Assembly (NCBI GenBank): GCA_009360885.1
Contig: SPEL01000001.1
Coordinates: 124,001 to 188,000, forward strand
Source: Sphingobium sp.
GTDB lineage: Bacteria > Pseudomonadota > Alphaproteobacteria > Sphingomonadales > Sphingomonadaceae
DNA: 64,000 nt
Reading direction: 5' to 3'
Shown here: piece by piece, positions 11,516-27,825 of the stretch
Position numbering within the stretch: position 1 is the first letter of the stretch
Layout of the letters: each line of letters begins with the position of its first letter
Notes under the pieces: generated by a model
What the model was told of the DNA's origin: nothing
Databases searched by the model: none
The model's input: the letters and a program-made list of their open reading frames with translations, nothing else
Made by a program: the position numbers and the translations under genes

Positions 11516-12252
11516 ACGCAATGGCAGAACAGGTGGCAACAGAGGCCTTCACATGGATGAGCGGCGGTAAAACGCCAATCTTGATCGTCGCGGATCATGC
11601 CAGCGCGCATGTGCCCGATGATATTGACCTCGGCATTGATCCGGCTCTGCTTAACAATCATATCGCCGTCGATATTGGTGTGGCGCAGGTCGCGGCACTG
11701 CTGGTTGAGCGCCTGCAATGCAGCGCCTTATTGGGCGGGGTGTCGCGGCTGGTGATTGATCTTAACCGCGAAGAAACCTCCTCCGGCCTTATTCCGGTCA
11801 TCAGTGATGGCCACAAAATCGCTGGCAATGAAGGGGTGGACCGTGCGGCCCGTATCGCCCGCTTTTATCACCCTTATCATGATGAATTAACGGCGCGCCT
11901 TTCGGCAATGGCGCACCCATTCATTTTTTCGCTTCATAGTTTTACGCCCTTTTTGAAGGAAAAGCCGGAAGAAAAGCGCCCATGGGAAATCGGTATCCTT
12001 TATAATCAGGATGAGCGGGCGGCGCGTCTTGCCATCCCTATGCTGGAGGAAGCCGGGGCAGTTGTGGGCGATCAGCAGCCTTATTCCGGGCGCATATTGA
12101 ATGCGACGATGAACCGTCATGCGGAAGGGGCGGGCCATCCCTATCTGGGGGTGGAAATGCGGCAGGATATTTCTGGCACGTCTGTAGGGCAGCGATATTA
12201 TACCGATTTGCTGGCCCCGGTGCTGGAGCAATGCCGGGCTTTGCTTGCATAA
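11512..12252 (+). CDS. N-formylglutamate amidohydrolase family protein
   Basis: 246 residues, starting at ATG 11512, which overlaps the ispE stop. It belongs to the FGase family of zinc-type amidohydrolases: VADHASAHVP near the N-terminus, the SRLVIDLNREE block, HPYHDEL, and FSLHSFTPF. It may hydrolyse N-formyl- or related N-acyl-amino acids. No histidine-utilisation genes are nearby, so the substrate is open. The last codons lie inside the first unit of a 36-bp tandem duplication (12235-12306), so the second unit carries a copy of the stop context. Confidence 0.85.
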   Translation: MNAMAEQVATEAFTWMSGGKTPILIVADHASAHVPDDIDLGIDPALLNNHIAVDIGVAQVAALLVERLQCSALLGGVSRLVIDLNREETSSGLIPVISDGHKIAGNEGVDRAARIARFYHPYHDELTARLSAMAHPFIFSLHSFTPFLKEKPEEKRPWEIGILYNQDERAARLAIPMLEEAGAVVGDQQPYSGRILNATMNRHAEGAGHPYLGVEMRQDISGTSVGQRYYTDLLAPVLEQCRALLA

Positions 12253-12306
12253 GCTGGCCAGAAAGCACATCGGGCTTTGCTTGTATAAGCTGGCTAGAAA
12301 GCACAT
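12235..12306. repeat. 36-bp tandem duplication across the 3' end of the amidohydrolase gene
   Basis: Unit 1 is 12235-12270 and unit 2 is 12271-12306. They are identical except for two C-to-T changes (GCATAAG/GTATAAG and GGCCAG/GGCTAG). Four more bases (CGGG) begin a third unit. Unit 1 includes the gene's final codons and TAA; unit 2 repeats the stop context in the 3' untranslated region. Confidence 0.95.
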
Positions 12307-12422
12307 CGGGTTTTACGCGCCTGAGCGAGGCCTGTAAGGCTGCCCGCTTGCATGAAGGGAGGCAGCCCGGTAGAGCGGGAAGCGGGGCGGTTTCGCCCTG
12401 TAATGCCTGATAAGGAACGCAC

Positions 12423-21501: not shown

Positions 21502-23793
21502 TCAGGCCGGTGTTACGAAATTGTCCATCACTCTTTTATGGCCAGCCTGTTCAAAATCTATCTCCAGCTTATTGCCATCAATCGCAGACACAATGCCATA
21601 ACCGAATTTCTGGTGGAATATCCGCTGATTAAGGGTGATGTCGGTGCGCGCTTTGGCGGTGGTTGTTGCCGGTTTCCGATGGGCCTGCGGTGGGGAGATG
21701 AGGGAGCCATTGCTGCCCGCCGCCTGCGCCGCCCGGTGCCAGCCGGGGCCACGCATTGCACCATGATTGCCTTGCTGCTGTCCATCACGATAAGGCGTGA
21801 CGGAGTCCGCCCAGTTGCTGCGCCATAAGTTAGAATTGGGGGCGCTATCGGCTTCTTCAATATGTTCGGGTGGCAGTTCACCAATGAAACGTGACGGAAT
21901 GCTGCTGGTCCATTGGCCATAAATGCGTCGATTAGCAGCATGAATGATGGTGCAGCGCTGCCGCGCCCGGGTGATCGCTACATAAGCGAGCCTGCGCTCT
22001 TCCTCCAGCCCGGAAAGGCCGCCTTCATCTAATGATCGCTGTGACGGGAAAACCCCATCTTCCCAGCCGGGTAGGAAAACATCCTGAAATTCCAGCCCTT
22101 TTGCGGCGTGGATAGTCATGATGGTGACTTTGCGCTCATCCTCTGCAGCGTCATTATCCATGACGAGGCTGACATGTTCCAGAAACGCGCCGAGATTTTC
22201 ATAATCTTCCATTGCGCGGGTGAGTTCGTTCAGGTTTTCAAGGCGTCCTGCGGCTTCTGCGGTGCGTTCGGCTTGTAACATCGCGGTATATCCGCTTTCG
22301 TCGAGGATGATACGCGCCAGTTCGGAATGCGGAAGGGTGCTGGCCATATCGCGCCAGCGGGCAATGCTGGTCGCAAAGCCGGTAAGGGCGCGCCTTGCCT
22401 GCGGGGTTAGTTCGTCTGTGCTGACAATCTGCCCGGCGGCGGCCAGTAGAGGAAGATGGTGGGCCCGTGCCAGCCGGTGAATTTTCTCCAGCGCCTTATC
22501 ACCCAGCCCGCGCTTGGGGATATTGACGATGCGTTCAAACGCCAGATCGTCCGATGGCTGCGCCACCAGCCGTAAATACGCCAGTGCATCCCGGATTTCC
22601 GACCGTTCGTAAAAGCGAAACCCACCGACAATGCGATACGGCAAGCCGATCTGTATGAAGCGGTCCTCAAATTCCCGCGTTTGAAACTGGGCACGAACAA
22701 GGATAGCGAAATCATCAAAGGCTTGGCCCGCGCGGTGGCGTTCCTCAATGGCATCGCTGATCGTGCGGGCTTCCTCTGGCCCATCCCACACGCCGATGAC
22801 GCGGACTTTTTCACCTGCATCTACTTCTGTCCAGAGGCTTTTGCCGAGTCGCTCGCTATTCCCCTCAATCACCCCGGATGCTGCACCCAATATATGCGGG
22901 GTGGAGCGGTAATTTTGTTCGAGTTTAACGGTTTTCGCGCCGGGGAAATCCCGTTCAAAGCGGAGGATATTGGCGACCTCGGCCCCGCGCCAGCTATAGA
23001 TGGACTGGTCATCATCGCCTACGCAGCAGATATTCTTCCGTTCTTGTGCCAGCAGCCTCAACCACAGATATTGGCTGCTGTTGGTGTCCTGATATTCATC
23101 CACCATGATATAGCGGAAGCGTTGCTGATAATGTTCTAACACTTCACGGTTTTGACGGAGCAGTGTGAGCGGATGAAGCAATAAGTCGCCAAAATCACAG
23201 GTGTTGAGCGCCAGCAACCGCTCCTGATAGGCGGCGTAAAGGCGTTGCCCCTGCCCATTGGCGAAATATTCGCCCTCTTTTGCATCGACATCGGCAGGGT
23301 TGAGGCCCTTATTCTTCCACTGGTCGATCAGGCCCGCAAGCTGGCGCGCCGGAAAGCGTTTTTCATCAATATTCGCAGCCTGAATCAGTTGCTTCAGCAG
23401 CCGAAGCTGATCGCTCGTGTCCAATATGGTGAAGTTGCTCTGCAGGCCGACCAGTTCAGCATGGCGGCGCAACATCTTGGCGCCTATGCTGTGAAATGTA
23501 CCGAGCCAGGGCATCCCCTCCACCGCTTCGCCAATGAGCCGCCCCACGCGTTCACGCATTTCGCGGGCGGCCTTGTTGGTAAAGGTGACGGCGAGAATTT
23601 CAGAAGGGTAGGCGCGGCGTGTCGCGATAAGATGCGCAAGGCGCGCGGTTAGCGCGGCGGTCTTGCCCGTTCCGGCTCCTGCCAGCACCAAGAGGGGGCC
23701 CTCAGTGGTGAGAACGGCATCCCTTTGCGGGGGGTTGAGGCCAGCAAGATAAGGCGGTTCATGATCGACAGGAGAAAAAATAGGGCTGGACAT
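21502..23793 (-). CDS. ATP-dependent DNA helicase, UvrD/PcrA type
   Basis: Superfamily 1A 3'-5' helicase for excision repair, mismatch repair and removal of recombinase from DNA. ATG 23793 gives 763 residues (the frame is open further, without family similarity). Motif Q/I: NPPQRDAVL and AGAGTGKTAALTARL; motif II DEYQDTN; motif III VGDDDQSIYSWRGA; late motifs MTIHAAKGLEFQ and LAYVAITRAR. The tail HQKFGYGIVSAIDGNKLEID is the Tudor-like PcrA/UvrD C-terminus that contacts RNA polymerase. A LexA box sits 5 bp upstream of the start, so it is probably SOS induced. Confidence 0.95.
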   Translation of the reverse strand: MSSPIFSPVDHEPPYLAGLNPPQRDAVLTTEGPLLVLAGAGTGKTAALTARLAHLIATRRAYPSEILAVTFTNKAAREMRERVGRLIGEAVEGMPWLGTFHSIGAKMLRRHAELVGLQSNFTILDTSDQLRLLKQLIQAANIDEKRFPARQLAGLIDQWKNKGLNPADVDAKEGEYFANGQGQRLYAAYQERLLALNTCDFGDLLLHPLTLLRQNREVLEHYQQRFRYIMVDEYQDTNSSQYLWLRLLAQERKNICCVGDDDQSIYSWRGAEVANILRFERDFPGAKTVKLEQNYRSTPHILGAASGVIEGNSERLGKSLWTEVDAGEKVRVIGVWDGPEEARTISDAIEERHRAGQAFDDFAILVRAQFQTREFEDRFIQIGLPYRIVGGFRFYERSEIRDALAYLRLVAQPSDDLAFERIVNIPKRGLGDKALEKIHRLARAHHLPLLAAAGQIVSTDELTPQARRALTGFATSIARWRDMASTLPHSELARIILDESGYTAMLQAERTAEAAGRLENLNELTRAMEDYENLGAFLEHVSLVMDNDAAEDERKVTIMTIHAAKGLEFQDVFLPGWEDGVFPSQRSLDEGGLSGLEEERRLAYVAITRARQRCTIIHAANRRIYGQWTSSIPSRFIGELPPEHIEEADSAPNSNLWRSNWADSVTPYRDGQQQGNHGAMRGPGWHRAAQAAGSNGSLISPPQAHRKPATTTAKARTDITLNQRIFHQKFGYGIVSAIDGNKLEIDFEQAGHKRVMDNFVTPA

Positions 23794-23797
23794 ATGT

Positions 23798-23812
23798 GAA
23801 CAATTAGGGAAC
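23798..23812. promoter_or_regulatory. LexA (SOS) box upstream of the helicase gene
   Basis: GAAC-AATTAGG-GAAC, an exact GAAC-N7-GAAC direct repeat in the 87-bp gap between the helicase start (23793, minus) and the divergent GFA gene (23881, plus). It could affect both. Confidence 0.75.
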
Positions 23813-23880
23813 AAATAAGAGAGAGGCAAGGGCGGAAAATCGATCTTGCGCCGAATGTAATTATTAAAAGGGCATGAAGC

Positions 23881-24276
23881 ATGACGAGTGGCGGCTGTCA
23901 ATGTGGGGCGATTCGTTACACAGTTCGCGGTGAAGCGGGGCATAAATCCCTCTGCTATTGCGGAGATTGCCGAAAAAGCAGCGGCGCGCCGGTCGTGGGC
24001 TGGATGCTATTTGAACAGGATCAGGTGGAAATCAGCGGTTCCCCGGTCAGCTATAAATCATCCGATCATGGGGAGCGCCAATTTTGCGGCCAGTGTGGCT
24101 CGTCGCTTTTTTACCTGAGTGAAACAGTGTTTCCGGGGCAGGTAGATATAACTATTGCATCACTGGATGATCCTGCGGCTTTTCCACCGGAAGCGCGGAT
24201 TCAACTGGCCGATGCACCAGAATGGGCGCGGCACATGGATGAACTGCCGGGGTTTGAGCGCTACCCCGGCATGTAA
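23881..24276 (+). CDS. GFA-family (glutathione-dependent formaldehyde-activating-like, CENP-V fold) protein
   Basis: 131 residues. Zinc-binding cysteine pattern of the GFA family: GGCQCGAIRY, LCYCGDCRKSSGAP and FCGQCGSSLFY. The prototype Gfa was proposed to accelerate S-hydroxymethylglutathione formation, but most family members have no proven activity. It is divergent from the helicase and may share its LexA-controlled region. Ends 16 bp before convergent rsmD. Confidence 0.88.
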   Translation: MTSGGCQCGAIRYTVRGEAGHKSLCYCGDCRKSSGAPVVGWMLFEQDQVEISGSPVSYKSSDHGERQFCGQCGSSLFYLSETVFPGQVDITIASLDDPAAFPPEARIQLADAPEWARHMDELPGFERYPGM

Positions 24277-24292
24277 GGATTAGGTCCTTATT

Positions 24293-24856
24293 CTAAGCAG
24301 GGCTGTTTTCTGCTTCGTTGACGTGACGGAGCAGATGCAGTCGGGCCTTGCCAATGTCGCGCACAGTTTCCACCTCAAAGCCTTTGACCGTGATGGTTTC
24401 TTTGCGGTCGGTTTCGATGCTGACCCAGGTCGCAGGGCCGATCCAGCCCTGACGATTGAGTTTATCGAGCGCCACTGCCCCTGCGCCGGTGCCATAAGGT
24501 GGGTCCATCATGATGAGGTCGAGAGGGCGAGGAGCTGTGCCAAGGTTGAGGGCAGAAGCGGCGCGAATGTCAGGGTGGTCCAGCCCCAGTTTCCCGGCAT
24601 TAGCGCGCAGGGCATCAAGAGCGCTGCGGTCTTGCTCTACAAACAGGCAGGATGCGGCGCCGCGTGATAATGCCTCCAGCCCTAATGCGCCCGACCCGGC
24701 GAACAGGTCCGCCACGGCCAGTCCTTCCAGATCACCCATGCGGCTGTTGAGCATGGAGAAAAGGGCTTCCCTTGTGCGGTCGGCGGTGGGGCGGGTGGTA
24801 TCCCCCTTAGGTGCGGTGAGCGGACGTCCGCGCCATTGCCCGGCAATGATCCTCAT
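24293..24856 (-). CDS. rsmD: 16S rRNA (guanine(966)-N2)-methyltransferase
   Basis: SAM-dependent enzyme that methylates G966 in 16S rRNA during 30S assembly. 187 residues from ATG 24856. Seen: MRIIAGQWRGRPL, TRPTADRTREALFSML, the SAM loop DLFAGSGALGLEALSRGA, and the catalytic MMDPPYGTG (DPPY). Its start codon and first six codons lie in the last unit of a 38-bp tandem repeat. Upstream there are two complete extra copies of ribosome site plus start, each opening a 13-codon ORF that ends on the next ATG. A longer in-frame ORF upstream (from 24904) is an artefact of those repeats. Confidence 0.95.
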   Translation of the reverse strand: MRIIAGQWRGRPLTAPKGDTTRPTADRTREALFSMLNSRMGDLEGLAVADLFAGSGALGLEALSRGAASCLFVEQDRSALDALRANAGKLGLDHPDIRAASALNLGTAPRPLDLIMMDPPYGTGAGAVALDKLNRQGWIGPATWVSIETDRKETITVKGFEVETVRDIGKARLHLLRHVNEAENSPA

Positions 24857-24894
24857 TGCGGGCCACCTAAAAACATACCGGCAATGATCCTCAT
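24853..24894 (-). CDS. Leader minicistron 3 before rsmD (13 codons)
   Basis: ATG 24894 to TGA 24853 encodes MRIIAGMFLGGPQ. Its TGA overlaps the rsmD ATG as ATGA. AGGTGG lies six bases upstream of its start. The peptide itself probably does not matter; the stop-start overlap would let ribosomes reinitiate on rsmD. Translation is inferred. Confidence 0.5.
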   Translation of the reverse strand: MRIIAGMFLGGPQ

Positions 24895-24932
24895 TGCGGG
24901 CCACCTAAAAACATACCGGCAATGATCCTCAT
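24891..24932 (-). CDS. Leader minicistron 2 before rsmD (13 codons)
   Basis: ATG 24932 to TGA 24891, the same peptide MRIIAGMFLGGPQ, again ending in ATGA on the next minicistron's start. The 38-bp unit equals 14 codons minus the 4-base overlap, so repeat expansion keeps the chain intact. Confidence 0.5.
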   Translation of the reverse strand: MRIIAGMFLGGPQ

Positions 24933-24970
24933 TGCGGGCTACCTATATTCGCTGCTGCGATACGGCGCAT
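24929..24970 (-). CDS. Leader minicistron 1 after rluB (13 codons, diverged)
   Basis: ATG 24970 shares its A with the rluB stop (TGATG). The ORF reads MRRIAAANIGSPQ and ends in ATGA on minicistron 2. It is also exactly 38 bases start to start, and agrees with the repeat unit at about 23 of 38 positions. It may be an old, diverged unit or the ancestral linker. Confidence 0.45.
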   Translation of the reverse strand: MRRIAAANIGSPQ

Positions 24971-26382
24971 CAGTTCGCTCCCTTTGGTATCGGGTTTTTG
25001 AGATAATGGAGGAAACGGTCCATATCGCCGCGCTTTATCTCCACCAATGCACCGGGCGTGGAATCAGCCAGATCAAACGGGCCATATTTAACGCGGATGA
25101 GGCGATTGACCTGTAGCCCCAAATGCTCCAGCACACGGCGGACTTCGCGGTTCTTCCCTTCGGAAAGCGTCAGCTCAATCCATTGGTTCCGGCCTGTGCG
25201 CCGTTCCAGATTAGCATCAATCCGACCATAGCGGATGCCATCCACTTCTATGCCTTCGATCAGTTCCTCTAGCTGTGTCTGACTGATCTCGCCAAAGGCG
25301 CGGGCGCGGTAAGTGCGCTCCACCCCATTGGCAGGCAGCTCCAGATAGCGTTTCAGTTCCCCATCATTGGTGAGCAGCAACAGCCCCTCTGTCGTCATGT
25401 CGAGACGCCCCACCGGCATCAAGCGCGGCAGGCCATCAGGCAGACGATCATAGATGGTCGGGCGGCCAGCTGGGTCACGTTCGGCGGTCAGGCACCCTGA
25501 TGGTTTGTGGAATAGGAACAGGCGCGGGGCTTCTGCCTCGGCAACCGGATCACCGTCAACGGTGACGCCCCGAAGATTAGAAAGCAATGTTGCGGGGGTG
25601 TCGAGCGTTACGCCATTAAGGGCGATGCGGCCTTCCTCTATCATGCGTTCAATTTCACGGCGGGAGGCGATCCCTGCGCGGGCCAGCAGCTTGGCGATGC
25701 GTTGCGGCTCGCCGGAGGCTTTTGTGCGTAGCGGGCTGCGCGGTGTTTTGGTGTCAGTGCGTGGCTGGCGGGGCGAGCGAGGTTCCGACACAGCATTGTG
25801 ATGCGGTGATGCTCTGCCACGCGGCGATGTGCCTTCGCGACGGCCACCATCATAAGAGGAGCGACCATGGCCGGGATCTTTACGCGCTGCGCCACGGGGG
25901 CCTTCTGTGGTCATCGAGCGGTTCCCGCGTGGGGAGTCGGATCGTTCCGTTCTGCGACCCATTTGCGGGCCATCCTTGCGTCCATCATGCCCGGATGTGC
26001 GATCACCATCATGGCGTACGCCTAAACGCGGGCGGTGAGAGGATGAGCCAGTGGCCTGTTTGTCATCCGGCGCAGAAAAACGCCCGTGGCCAATATGGTT
26101 TCCGGTGGATGATGTTTTAGCGGGTCGCTTGCCTTTTTCCTTACGTTCTGGCGCAACGCCCCAGCTTGCCGCAACGCGGGCACTTTCCGATTTGCGGGAG
26201 GACGATGATGCGCCCTCGCGTCTATCGCTGGCCCGGTTGTCGCTGGCCCGGTTGTCGCTGGCGCGGTCGGCTGGCCGTGAGTCACCAGTGTGGCGGGTGG
26301 TAGGCCGACGTGGGCCAGCGGCACCGGCGCGCGAGGAAGAGGGGCGAGATGGTTTACGGGGTGGCTTCATGTCACTGCCCAT
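24970..26382 (-). CDS. Ribosomal large-subunit pseudouridine synthase (RluB/RsuA family) with disordered basic N-terminus
   Basis: Isomerises uridine to pseudouridine in rRNA. 470 residues; a second ATG four codons in (26370) is possible. Residues 1 to about 225 are Arg/Ser/Gly/Asp-rich low complexity, like an RNA-binding tail, including a short RASDN repeat. The S4 RNA-binding domain then begins (RIAKLLARAGIASRREIERM), followed by the catalytic domain with Asp in VGRLDMTTEGLLLLTNDG, then LTLSEGKNREVRRVLEHLGL. The family fits RluB (23S U2605), though RluE/RsuA cannot be fully excluded. It is the first gene of the rluB-minicistron-rsmD operon. Confidence 0.9.
   Translation of the reverse strand: MGSDMKPPRKPSRPSSSRAGAAGPRRPTTRHTGDSRPADRASDNRASDNRASDRREGASSSSRKSESARVAASWGVAPERKEKGKRPAKTSSTGNHIGHGRFSAPDDKQATGSSSHRPRLGVRHDGDRTSGHDGRKDGPQMGRRTERSDSPRGNRSMTTEGPRGAARKDPGHGRSSYDGGRREGTSPRGRASPHHNAVSEPRSPRQPRTDTKTPRSPLRTKASGEPQRIAKLLARAGIASRREIERMIEEGRIALNGVTLDTPATLLSNLRGVTVDGDPVAEAEAPRLFLFHKPSGCLTAERDPAGRPTIYDRLPDGLPRLMPVGRLDMTTEGLLLLTNDGELKRYLELPANGVERTYRARAFGEISQTQLEELIEGIEVDGIRYGRIDANLERRTGRNQWIELTLSEGKNREVRRVLEHLGLQVNRLIRVKYGPFDLADSTPGALVEIKRGDMDRFLHYLKNPIPKGAN
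26231..26260. repeat. Two 15-bp repeats inside the rluB 5' region
   Basis: GCCCGGTTGTCGCTG occurs at 26231-26245 and 26246-26260, and encodes part of the repeated Arg-Ala-Ser-Asp-Asn segment. In-frame length variation would be tolerated here. Confidence 0.85.
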
Positions 26383-26484
26383 GCCTTAGTCTGCGTCCAA
26401 TCGCAATGCGCCTGATTGCATCCGGGGCTGGCGGAGGGCAGGAATTTGGGTAAAAGAGAGGGCTATCACGCAACCGAGCCAGAG

Positions 26485-27825
26485 ATGAACCGCATGACCA
26501 ATGAAGCAGCCATCAGCACCGGCTGGCGCGCAAAACTGCCCGAAGCGATACGCCCTTACACCGAAAATGCGTCGGTTGCGGCTTTTTTCCTTGGAATATC
26601 GTCAGGTTTTCCCTTTGCGATGATTGGCGCAACGCTGACAACCCGGCTGGCGCAAGATGGCATTGATAAGAAAGCGGTGACGGCCTTCACCCTCGCTTTT
26701 CTGGTGTATAATCTGAAATTCTTATGGGCATGGGTGGTAGACGGTGTGCGCATCCCTGTGTTGGGGCGCTTGGGTCAACGCGTATCATGGCTGTTGCTTG
26801 TGGGGGTTTTGGTAATGCTGGCCGTTGCCAATTTGGCCTTCGTAGACCCGAAAACAAGCCTGCTGCAAACGGCTTATGCAGCGGTATTGCTGGGCTTTGC
26901 GGGCGCAACATTCGATATTGTGATTGACGCTTATCGCATTGAGATATTGAAGCCGGAGCAACTTGGCGTTGGTTCTGGCATGACGCAATATGGCTGGCGT
27001 ATTGGTTCTGTCGCGGCGGGGGCGCTGGCGTTGGTGCTAGCGGCGCGTGTCGGGTGGCAGGCGGCCTATATGGCCTGCGCAATTTTTGCTTTGCCTGCGA
27101 TGCTGACAGGCCTCTTCATGGGGGAACCGGAACGCCACAGGGAGGTGGCCGCCAAAAAGGGGCTGGCTGATCTGGGATCGTCAATCGTCGGGCCGCTCAT
27201 TGAGTTTTTCCGCCGTAAAGGCGCGTTTCTGGTTTTACTGTTCATTTTGCTCCATAAAATTGGCGATACGCTGGCGAACCTCACTTTCCGCCTGCTGTTT
27301 GATGATCTGGGCTATAGCAATGACGAGATCGCCATTTACGACATCGGCTTTGGCTTTTGGGCCTATCTCATCGGTATTTTCATCGGCGGTATCCTATATG
27401 CGCGCATGGGGATGAAGCGGTCGGTGTTGCTGAGCCTTGTCCTGATGGCCGTTTCCAATTTCAGCTTCGCGTTGCTGGCCCATGTCGGCCATAGCAACTG
27501 GGGCATGGCCGGGGCGATTGGATTTGAAAATATCGCCAGCGGCATTGGTGGCGTTACGGTCATTGCCTATTTTTCTGCGCTCTGTGATCTACGTTTCACC
27601 GCATCCCAATATGCGCTGATTTCGGCGGCGGCGAGCATCATTGGCCGCTTCGTAACGGGCACCACCGCCGGGTCGTTGATCGAAAGCCTCGGCTATGTGA
27701 ATTTCTATTTACTGACGACTTTGGCGGCGCTCCCCGGCATTATATTATTCTATCTGATGATGCGCAGCGGCTTGGTCGATGCCAGCGTCGGTACGGCGGG
27801 TAAGGACGAAGGCCGCACCAGTTAA
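26485..27825 (+). CDS. AmpG-like MFS permease
   Basis: 446 residues from ATG 26485 (26494 also possible; the open frame extends upstream without a ribosome site). Twelve predicted membrane helices. Conserved features resemble AmpG anhydromuropeptide permeases: FLGISSGFPFAMIGATLTTRLAQDG, KFLWAWVVDGVRIP, and GATFDIVIDAYRIE. It would import GlcNAc-anhydroMurNAc-peptides from the periplasm for cell-wall recycling, the same product type made by the lytic transglycosylase at 4.1 kb. No ampD or nagZ nearby. Divergent from rluB. Confidence 0.85.
   Translation: MNRMTNEAAISTGWRAKLPEAIRPYTENASVAAFFLGISSGFPFAMIGATLTTRLAQDGIDKKAVTAFTLAFLVYNLKFLWAWVVDGVRIPVLGRLGQRVSWLLLVGVLVMLAVANLAFVDPKTSLLQTAYAAVLLGFAGATFDIVIDAYRIEILKPEQLGVGSGMTQYGWRIGSVAAGALALVLAARVGWQAAYMACAIFALPAMLTGLFMGEPERHREVAAKKGLADLGSSIVGPLIEFFRRKGAFLVLLFILLHKIGDTLANLTFRLLFDDLGYSNDEIAIYDIGFGFWAYLIGIFIGGILYARMGMKRSVLLSLVLMAVSNFSFALLAHVGHSNWGMAGAIGFENIASGIGGVTVIAYFSALCDLRFTASQYALISAAASIIGRFVTGTTAGSLIESLGYVNFYLLTTLAALPGIILFYLMMRSGLVDASVGTAGKDEGRTS

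Follow-up and report, generated by a model that had tools for sequence, protein, structure and literature searches.

Mycobacterial MIRUs, reportedly described by Supply et al. in 1997, have a unit length of 77 bp, are known from senX3-regX3, and can also form tandem arrays of variable number. In bicistronic designs, which usually have one leader frame, the next ribosome site lies inside the short frame, and stop and start are shared. The part of the literature that bears on MIRUs (PMC12548453) describes them as ORF-bearing repeats that, spaced at −4 nt, couple their ORF to the gene downstream, which the insertion barely disturbs; they are apparently mobile and insert at start codons. The leader ORF of E. 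coli iraD is also short, its stop overlaps the iraD start codon, and the ribosome site of iraD is sequestered in RNA structure, according to the relevant portion of PMC5574718. On distance, the relevant section of PMC10666635 reports three E. coli gene pairs set 38 nt apart: reinitiation was lost completely in one and fell by 80-90% in the other two. Local structure has been predicted at some coupled starts, and the authors of PMC6728339 hypothesize, in the pertinent passages, that such structure blocks independent initiation in coupled pairs.

We describe a naturally occurring array of minicistrons in a 64,000-nt stretch of DNA (the window) from a Sphingobium-like genome of 2.93 Mb (79.6% complete); among its named relatives, Sphingobium jiangsuense has the closest RsmD (88% over the best segment). 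Three minicistrons, here called U1, A1, and A2, stand between rluB and rsmD. The first-pass annotation knew of no described case, yet MIRUs, as presented in the cited part of PMC12548453, are a precedent: the window's repeat ORFs show the same −4 spacing (ATGA) at U1/A1, A1/A2, and A2/rsmD, coupling is predicted there, and by analogy the working principle would be the same. The difference is that the window's unit duplicates the start of rsmD itself and was found at one genomic place, not at several start codons, and because it is found at one place only we do not file it as a MIRU. Within the literature searched, what is new relative to MIRUs is that the units come from a gene's own start, lie at a single genomic site, and recur at one junction.

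The other systems resemble the window in particular features. Termination-reinitiation pairs, in the portions of PMC6728339 and PMC10666635 that describe them, have the same overlap types that are found at all four junctions here (one TGATG, three ATGA) and predicted structure at the downstream start; coupling is described there for gene pairs, whereas the window has a series of four overlaps separated by 13-codon frames. As far as the cited portion of PMC5574718 goes, iraD has a single leader coupling ORF, repressed by CsrA, and repeats are not mentioned. Bicistronic design, as outlined in parts of PMC12548453 and PMC5995908, relies on a short translated frame to bring ribosomes to the next gene, as we propose here; it is engineered, whereas the window's array is natural, threefold, and putatively fed by rluB. 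The mgtQ ORF between mgtC and mgtB is likewise an intergenic small ORF that promotes downstream translation, but the pertinent section of PMC8092293 attributes this to ribosome-destabilizing acidic residues and alternative stems, with no overlap chain.

Anatomy and origin of the array

On the minus strand, the rluB-like pseudouridine synthase gene (24970-26382, a frame of 470 aa) ends in a TGA (24972-24970) that gives its A to the ATG of U1, so that start and stop overlap by one base as TGATG. U1 (24929-24970), the first and diverged minicistron, encodes MRRIAAANIGSPQ followed by its stop, and overlaps A1 (24891-24932) at an ATGA. A1 in turn overlaps A2 (24853-24894) at an ATGA, and A2 overlaps rsmD in the same way. 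All three are 13-codon frames with starts spaced 38 bp apart; A1 and A2 are identical, each encoding MRIIAGMFLGGPQ and a stop. The chain opens onto rsmD (24293-24856, 187 aa), the gene for 16S rRNA (guanine-966-N2)-methyltransferase, whose start lies 113 nt from the rluB stop (116 nt counted from the first base of the stop). The minus-strand chain of rluB, U1, A1, A2, and rsmD had been drawn correctly to the base in the first-pass annotation, and its arithmetic, by which the unit length of 38 equals 42 minus the 4-base overlap, holds. Tandem Repeats Finder reports the region as a 38-bp tandem array of 2.8 copies with a 98% match (24840-24945, minus strand). It also finds another tandem repeat at 12235-12314 of the window (36 bp × 2.2, 93% match), and a 15-bp × 2.9 repeat at 26225-26267, in the N-terminal part of rluB, encodes repeated ASDNR residues.

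Both flanking genes were assigned with family models. In a profile search, the rsmD product matched TIGR00095 at 136.1 bits against a cut-off of 117.5. The best match of the rluB product is the RluB model NF007976 (2.2e-49), at 168.2 bits and under that model's cut-off of 290, and the product lies above the own cut-offs of the TIGR00093, PseudoU_synth_2, and S4 models. The 38-bp unit was found at one place only in the 79.6%-complete genome, on which ground we rejected a dispersed repeat, and its tail motif occurs without mismatch only at the three local sites. Rfam returned zero families at gathering score across 23500-26500, and no sigma-70-type promoter was found between 24200 and 26600. Elsewhere in the genome, a 24-codon frame (L184, 11482-11552; G000:C1, about 359,480-359,560) overlaps both an upstream stop and the start of an 887-codon frame, and is a possible single natural bridge; from the translations, we take the upstream gene to be ylxR-type and the 887-codon frame to be infB-like.

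The composition of the units points to how the array was built. The proposal that the minicistron peptides copy the RsmD N-terminus stands for the 17 nt at the head of A1 and of A2, which copy the rsmD start exactly (MRIIAG), and fails for the 21-nt tail of the unit, whose similarity to rsmD is not significant: 54% of shuffles score equally, and we rejected the tail as a diverged rsmD copy on this basis. U1 and A are identical at 23 of 38 positions, and the last 20 nt of U1 match those of A at 14 of 20. The first 18 nt of U1 agree at 11 of 18 positions with the start of rsmD in G024 and likewise in G050, the two nearest relatives (p about 0.002), and with the window's own rsmD at 9 of 18 (p 0.02), where both p values count the common ATG. 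Because its start resembles the TGATGCG start of these relatives more closely and its tail matches A, we infer that U1 is the former rsmD start, stranded when the region first duplicated, and that A1 and A2 were made afterwards from the tail of U1 plus the new start. Since A1 and A2 do not differ, they are probably recent. U1, in keeping with the earlier suggestion that the design may predate the exact repeats, looks both older and decayed. Chance tandem duplication, which had been offered as the simple alternative, accounts for the origin of the array.

Start-copy bridges and the frame rule

Most genus members have an rluB stop that overlaps the rsmD start. Measuring to the rsmD start from the first base of the rluB stop, we found a direct overlap in 68 of 89 genus rows: 64 are ATGA (distance −1) and 4 the TGATG type (+2); the nearest relatives, G024 and G050, have TGATG. 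Another 13 rows have a gap of 42-168 nt and no chain, which indicates that coupling is dispensable in some lineages. The remaining rows comprise five at 10-19 nt (G061 included), one at 34 nt (G067), the window at 116 nt, and one unknown. Three of those at 10-19 nt (G010, G027, and G028) have a gap without an ATG, and among the 13 long unbridged gaps several (L112, L114, L132, and L144) carry repeat-like sequence of the TTCGCCCTGAGCCTGTCGAAGGGC kind. RsmD is present in 92 of 94 genus genomes; 90 loci were taken first, giving 89 usable rows (G004 missed the start pattern), 88 of them with an identified RluB end, and G084 and G040 were added later. A simple upstream-stop rule admits shadow frames and misplaced the rluB end of G084 at its mini-frame, besides altering a few gaps; the genus gap counts were thus not taken from that rule, and the rluB end of G084 was taken from translations.

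Upstream copies of the rsmD start, sought up to 130 nt ahead of the gene, occurred at 4 of the 91 genus junctions that could be anchored (from 92 loci) and at none of the 83 anchored in other genera of the family (88 loci, taken from 119 such genomes with an RsmD match). A start was placed at 12 or 22 codons in 5 of 254 rows, where a copy could be missed. In addition to the window, the bridged genomes are G067, with a 35-bp unit that encodes MRIIAGSPGGPQ and holds a 17-nt exact copy of the rsmD start; G061, with a 20-bp unit (MKMIAGQ) identical at 15 of 20 positions; and G084, with a 14-bp unit (MRIGQ) whose first 9 nt are exact. In all four, the small frame closes in the ATGA that opens rsmD. 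Its other end meets the rluB stop in three of them (the window, G061, and G067); in G084 rluB ends 10 nt ahead of the mini-frame and only the mini-to-rsmD half overlaps. Two of the bridges were met again (L036 and L062) among 80 named contigs, a set that overlaps with the genus set.

The bridged genomes fall on separate branches in trees of the RluB end and RsmD (three of them in one tree, four in another); the starred branches force as many changes, and G084 is a long branch whose exact position is unsure. No bridge is present in G024, the window's sister, nor in G076, G018, and G060, the nearest to G067. Similar bridges seem, from these comparisons, to have arisen separately in related bacteria. 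Two weaker candidates were set aside. A possible 17-bp decayed copy in G009 (L029; 12/18), whose length is also 2 mod 3, was dropped since among 450 control comparisons 28 score exactly 12 and a further 4 score 13, and a 13/17 match 40 bp upstream in L147 (the same sequence as L055) lies inside rluB, ahead of a direct overlap, and was taken as chance.

The first-pass annotation had proposed comparing relatives for copy number varying in 38-bp steps. No other genome examined has a 38-bp array, and the bridged relatives carry single units of 35, 20, and 14 bp. The array was found in 1 of 397 and 1 of 385 genomes (the window's own both times) and in 0 of 94 in a further search, all compared genomes being other species. 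The family and class pattern searches (397 and 385) need near-exact copies, so that units like those of G061 and G084 would escape them, and they include 11 genus members (own included) and the window's own genome alone, respectively. Tuning of RsmD by copy number is thus conjecture.

What the four bridges have in common is arithmetic. Their unit lengths (38, 35, 20, and 14) are all 2 mod 3. We simulated all tandem duplications with the left end at most 30 nt upstream of the ATG and the right end 12-45 nt inside rsmD, using 65 genus junctions that pass a simple ATGA rule, and scored a chain when the frame opened by the first ATG closed precisely in the ATGA of the second one. Chaining occurred in 22,327 of 22,815 duplications at 2 mod 3 (98%) and in 0 of 45,695 others, a fraction of 0.326 overall. 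This supports the earlier statement that an extra copy of this length is a self-contained unit that leaves rsmD intact; expansion never breaks rsmD because the unit length is 2 mod 3. If every duplication were kept alike, the chance that four of four units fall in the chaining class would be 0.326^4 = 0.011, which suggests selection for chain-keeping units. The 20-bp and 14-bp units, however, end at sequence resembling rsmD's own CAATGG, and their lengths may be owed to slippage between the start ATG and a CAATGG-like sequence at codons 7-8. Slippage between two ATGs could yield 2-mod-3 units without selection, which weakens the argument from 0.011, and four events make a small sample.

Ribosome sites and predicted start folds

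Shine-Dalgarno-like sites precede the starts of the chain on the minus strand. Pairing energies were computed between the anti-Shine-Dalgarno core and the 20 nt ahead of each start; GGATCACCTCCTT, presumably the 16S 3' end, was found once in the genome. The site before U1 is AAAGGGAG (24978-24985, −6.9 kcal/mol), and AGGTGG precedes both A2 (24901-24906) and, from within A2, rsmD (24863-24868), at −7.1 kcal/mol each. This equals the 5% point of the background. Before A1 the site is AGGTAG, at only −3.8 kcal/mol. As in bicistronic designs, the Shine-Dalgarno-like site for the next start thus lies inside the short cistron.

A predicted hairpin at 24838-24863 (minus strand) spans the A2 stop together with the rsmD start. 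With 11 pairs, one bulge, a 3-nt loop, and −16.1 kcal/mol, it gives the window's rsmD start the strongest predicted fold among 91 genus starts. Its 7-bp core is found again at the A1 and A2 starts. Taken over its full length, the RNA of the array is of ordinary stability (z −1.36; 19 of 200 shuffles do as well), and we rejected an unusually stable RNA on that score. The rsmD start of G067 ranks eighth in the genus (−14.0), and its unit sets GGAGGT (−10.5) ahead of rsmD. In the window and in G067 (L010), the hairpins predicted at the rsmD start follow the same plan of 4 pairs, a 1-nt bulge, 7 pairs, and a GGA loop, and their arms differ by one compensatory pair (GCCC/GGGC vs GTCC/GGAC); a single such pair is too little for a conserved RNA, a candidate that we set aside. 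Structure may nevertheless be relevant in these two long-unit genomes. It is not a general feature of bridges: by predicted fold, the rsmD start of G061 comes last among 166 (−2.4) and that of G084 ranks 103rd (−7.4), both behind weak ribosome sites (−2.6 and −2.7 kcal/mol, respectively). The mean fold over the 166 starts is −8.65 vs −11.65 at control positions, and 5 of 75 other-genus starts, with no bridge seen in them, out-fold the window's rsmD start.

Proposed coupling and its alternatives

We propose that the array is a coupling bridge that holds rsmD translationally tied to rluB over 113 nt, a reading to which we give a probability of about 0.52. The insert would consist of tandemly repeated rsmD translation starts, chained because a unit of 3n+2 bases makes each copy a short frame ending in the ATGA that opens the next. 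Ribosomes finishing rluB would pass through U1, A1, and A2 to rsmD, handed over by termination-reinitiation or because the start fold is opened for a new ribosome, and rsmD would remain coupled to rluB despite the intervening distance. Given the loss of reinitiation at 38 nt in the distance data of PMC10666635, an unbridged gap of 113 nt should break coupling. The peptides are probably by-products. Three links could lower the flow through loss per step or raise it through extra entry sites. The anatomy, the prevailing coupled layout of the genus, the bridges of four genomes on separate branches, and the frame rule are what we observed; minicistron translation, the importance of coupling, and selective retention are what we infer. 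A bolder version strikes us as improbable: stop-start overlaps would be hot spots that duplicate a gene's own start, only 3n+2 units would persist, and the arrays would act as an evolvable multi-step relay in which each added minicistron shifts RsmD output by a fixed factor, a repeat-number dial for translation that leaves promoter and protein untouched.

The main competitor is neutral slippage, in which duplications arise at the overlap, one in three chains by arithmetic, and the array is invisible to selection. We consider this a real if clearly less probable explanation. A third of simulated duplications (33%) chain perfectly; A1 and A2 are identical and hence probably recent; relatives lack a copy-number series; and two of the four bridges (G061 and G084) have no strong folds or ribosome sites. 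In addition, the same mechanical rule picks out bridging frames at 4 other places in 304 kb of this genome (one two-link, zero three-link), some of which rely on frames that are possibly not genes. Against neutrality stands the observation that four of four units on separate branches belong to the chain-keeping class, expected about 1% of the time by chance. That the diverged U1 is still open and in register points the same way, but weakly, as the odds are about even for 13 random codons. On balance, we regard the coupling bridge as real and tidy, and a function for it as more probable than not.

Other explanations would change what the array is. In both A1 and A2, the hairpin GCAATGAGGATCATTGC with the T run that follows it was flagged as terminator-like, and the two copies could be weak terminators that cut rsmD transcription unless covered by ribosomes; this is very unlikely, as the T run starts 7 nt past the 7-bp stem, the scanned region holds 5 such sites on both strands vs 2.5 (sd 1.9) in shuffles, and the hairpin core is partly dictated by the MRII codons. 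Part of the array would instead be coding if RsmD began at GTG 24904, in frame with rsmD, where a frame of 203 aa (24293-24904) is open, yet of 254 anchored rows, some of them duplicated between sets, 249 place the conserved MRII-type start 21 codons ahead of the anchor motif (the others at 12, in 4 rows, or 22, in 1), and the extension is the repeat read in another frame; we give this longer N-terminus hardly any credence. It is also highly improbable that the repeat count or the insert was misassembled. The window rests on one assembly, 79.6% complete, and at least two of the other bridges, those of G067 and G061, also come from metagenome assemblies, but U1 is diverged, separate assemblies hold bridges of their own, and the array is about 106 bp, shorter than the usual sequencing reads.

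A duplication of 3n+2 bases at a stop-start overlap creates a whole minicistron at no extra cost, which would be a route of micro-gene birth. And if coupling selects such arrays, the genus would offer natural experiments on ribosome handover, with 0, 1, and 3 steps at one gene pair.
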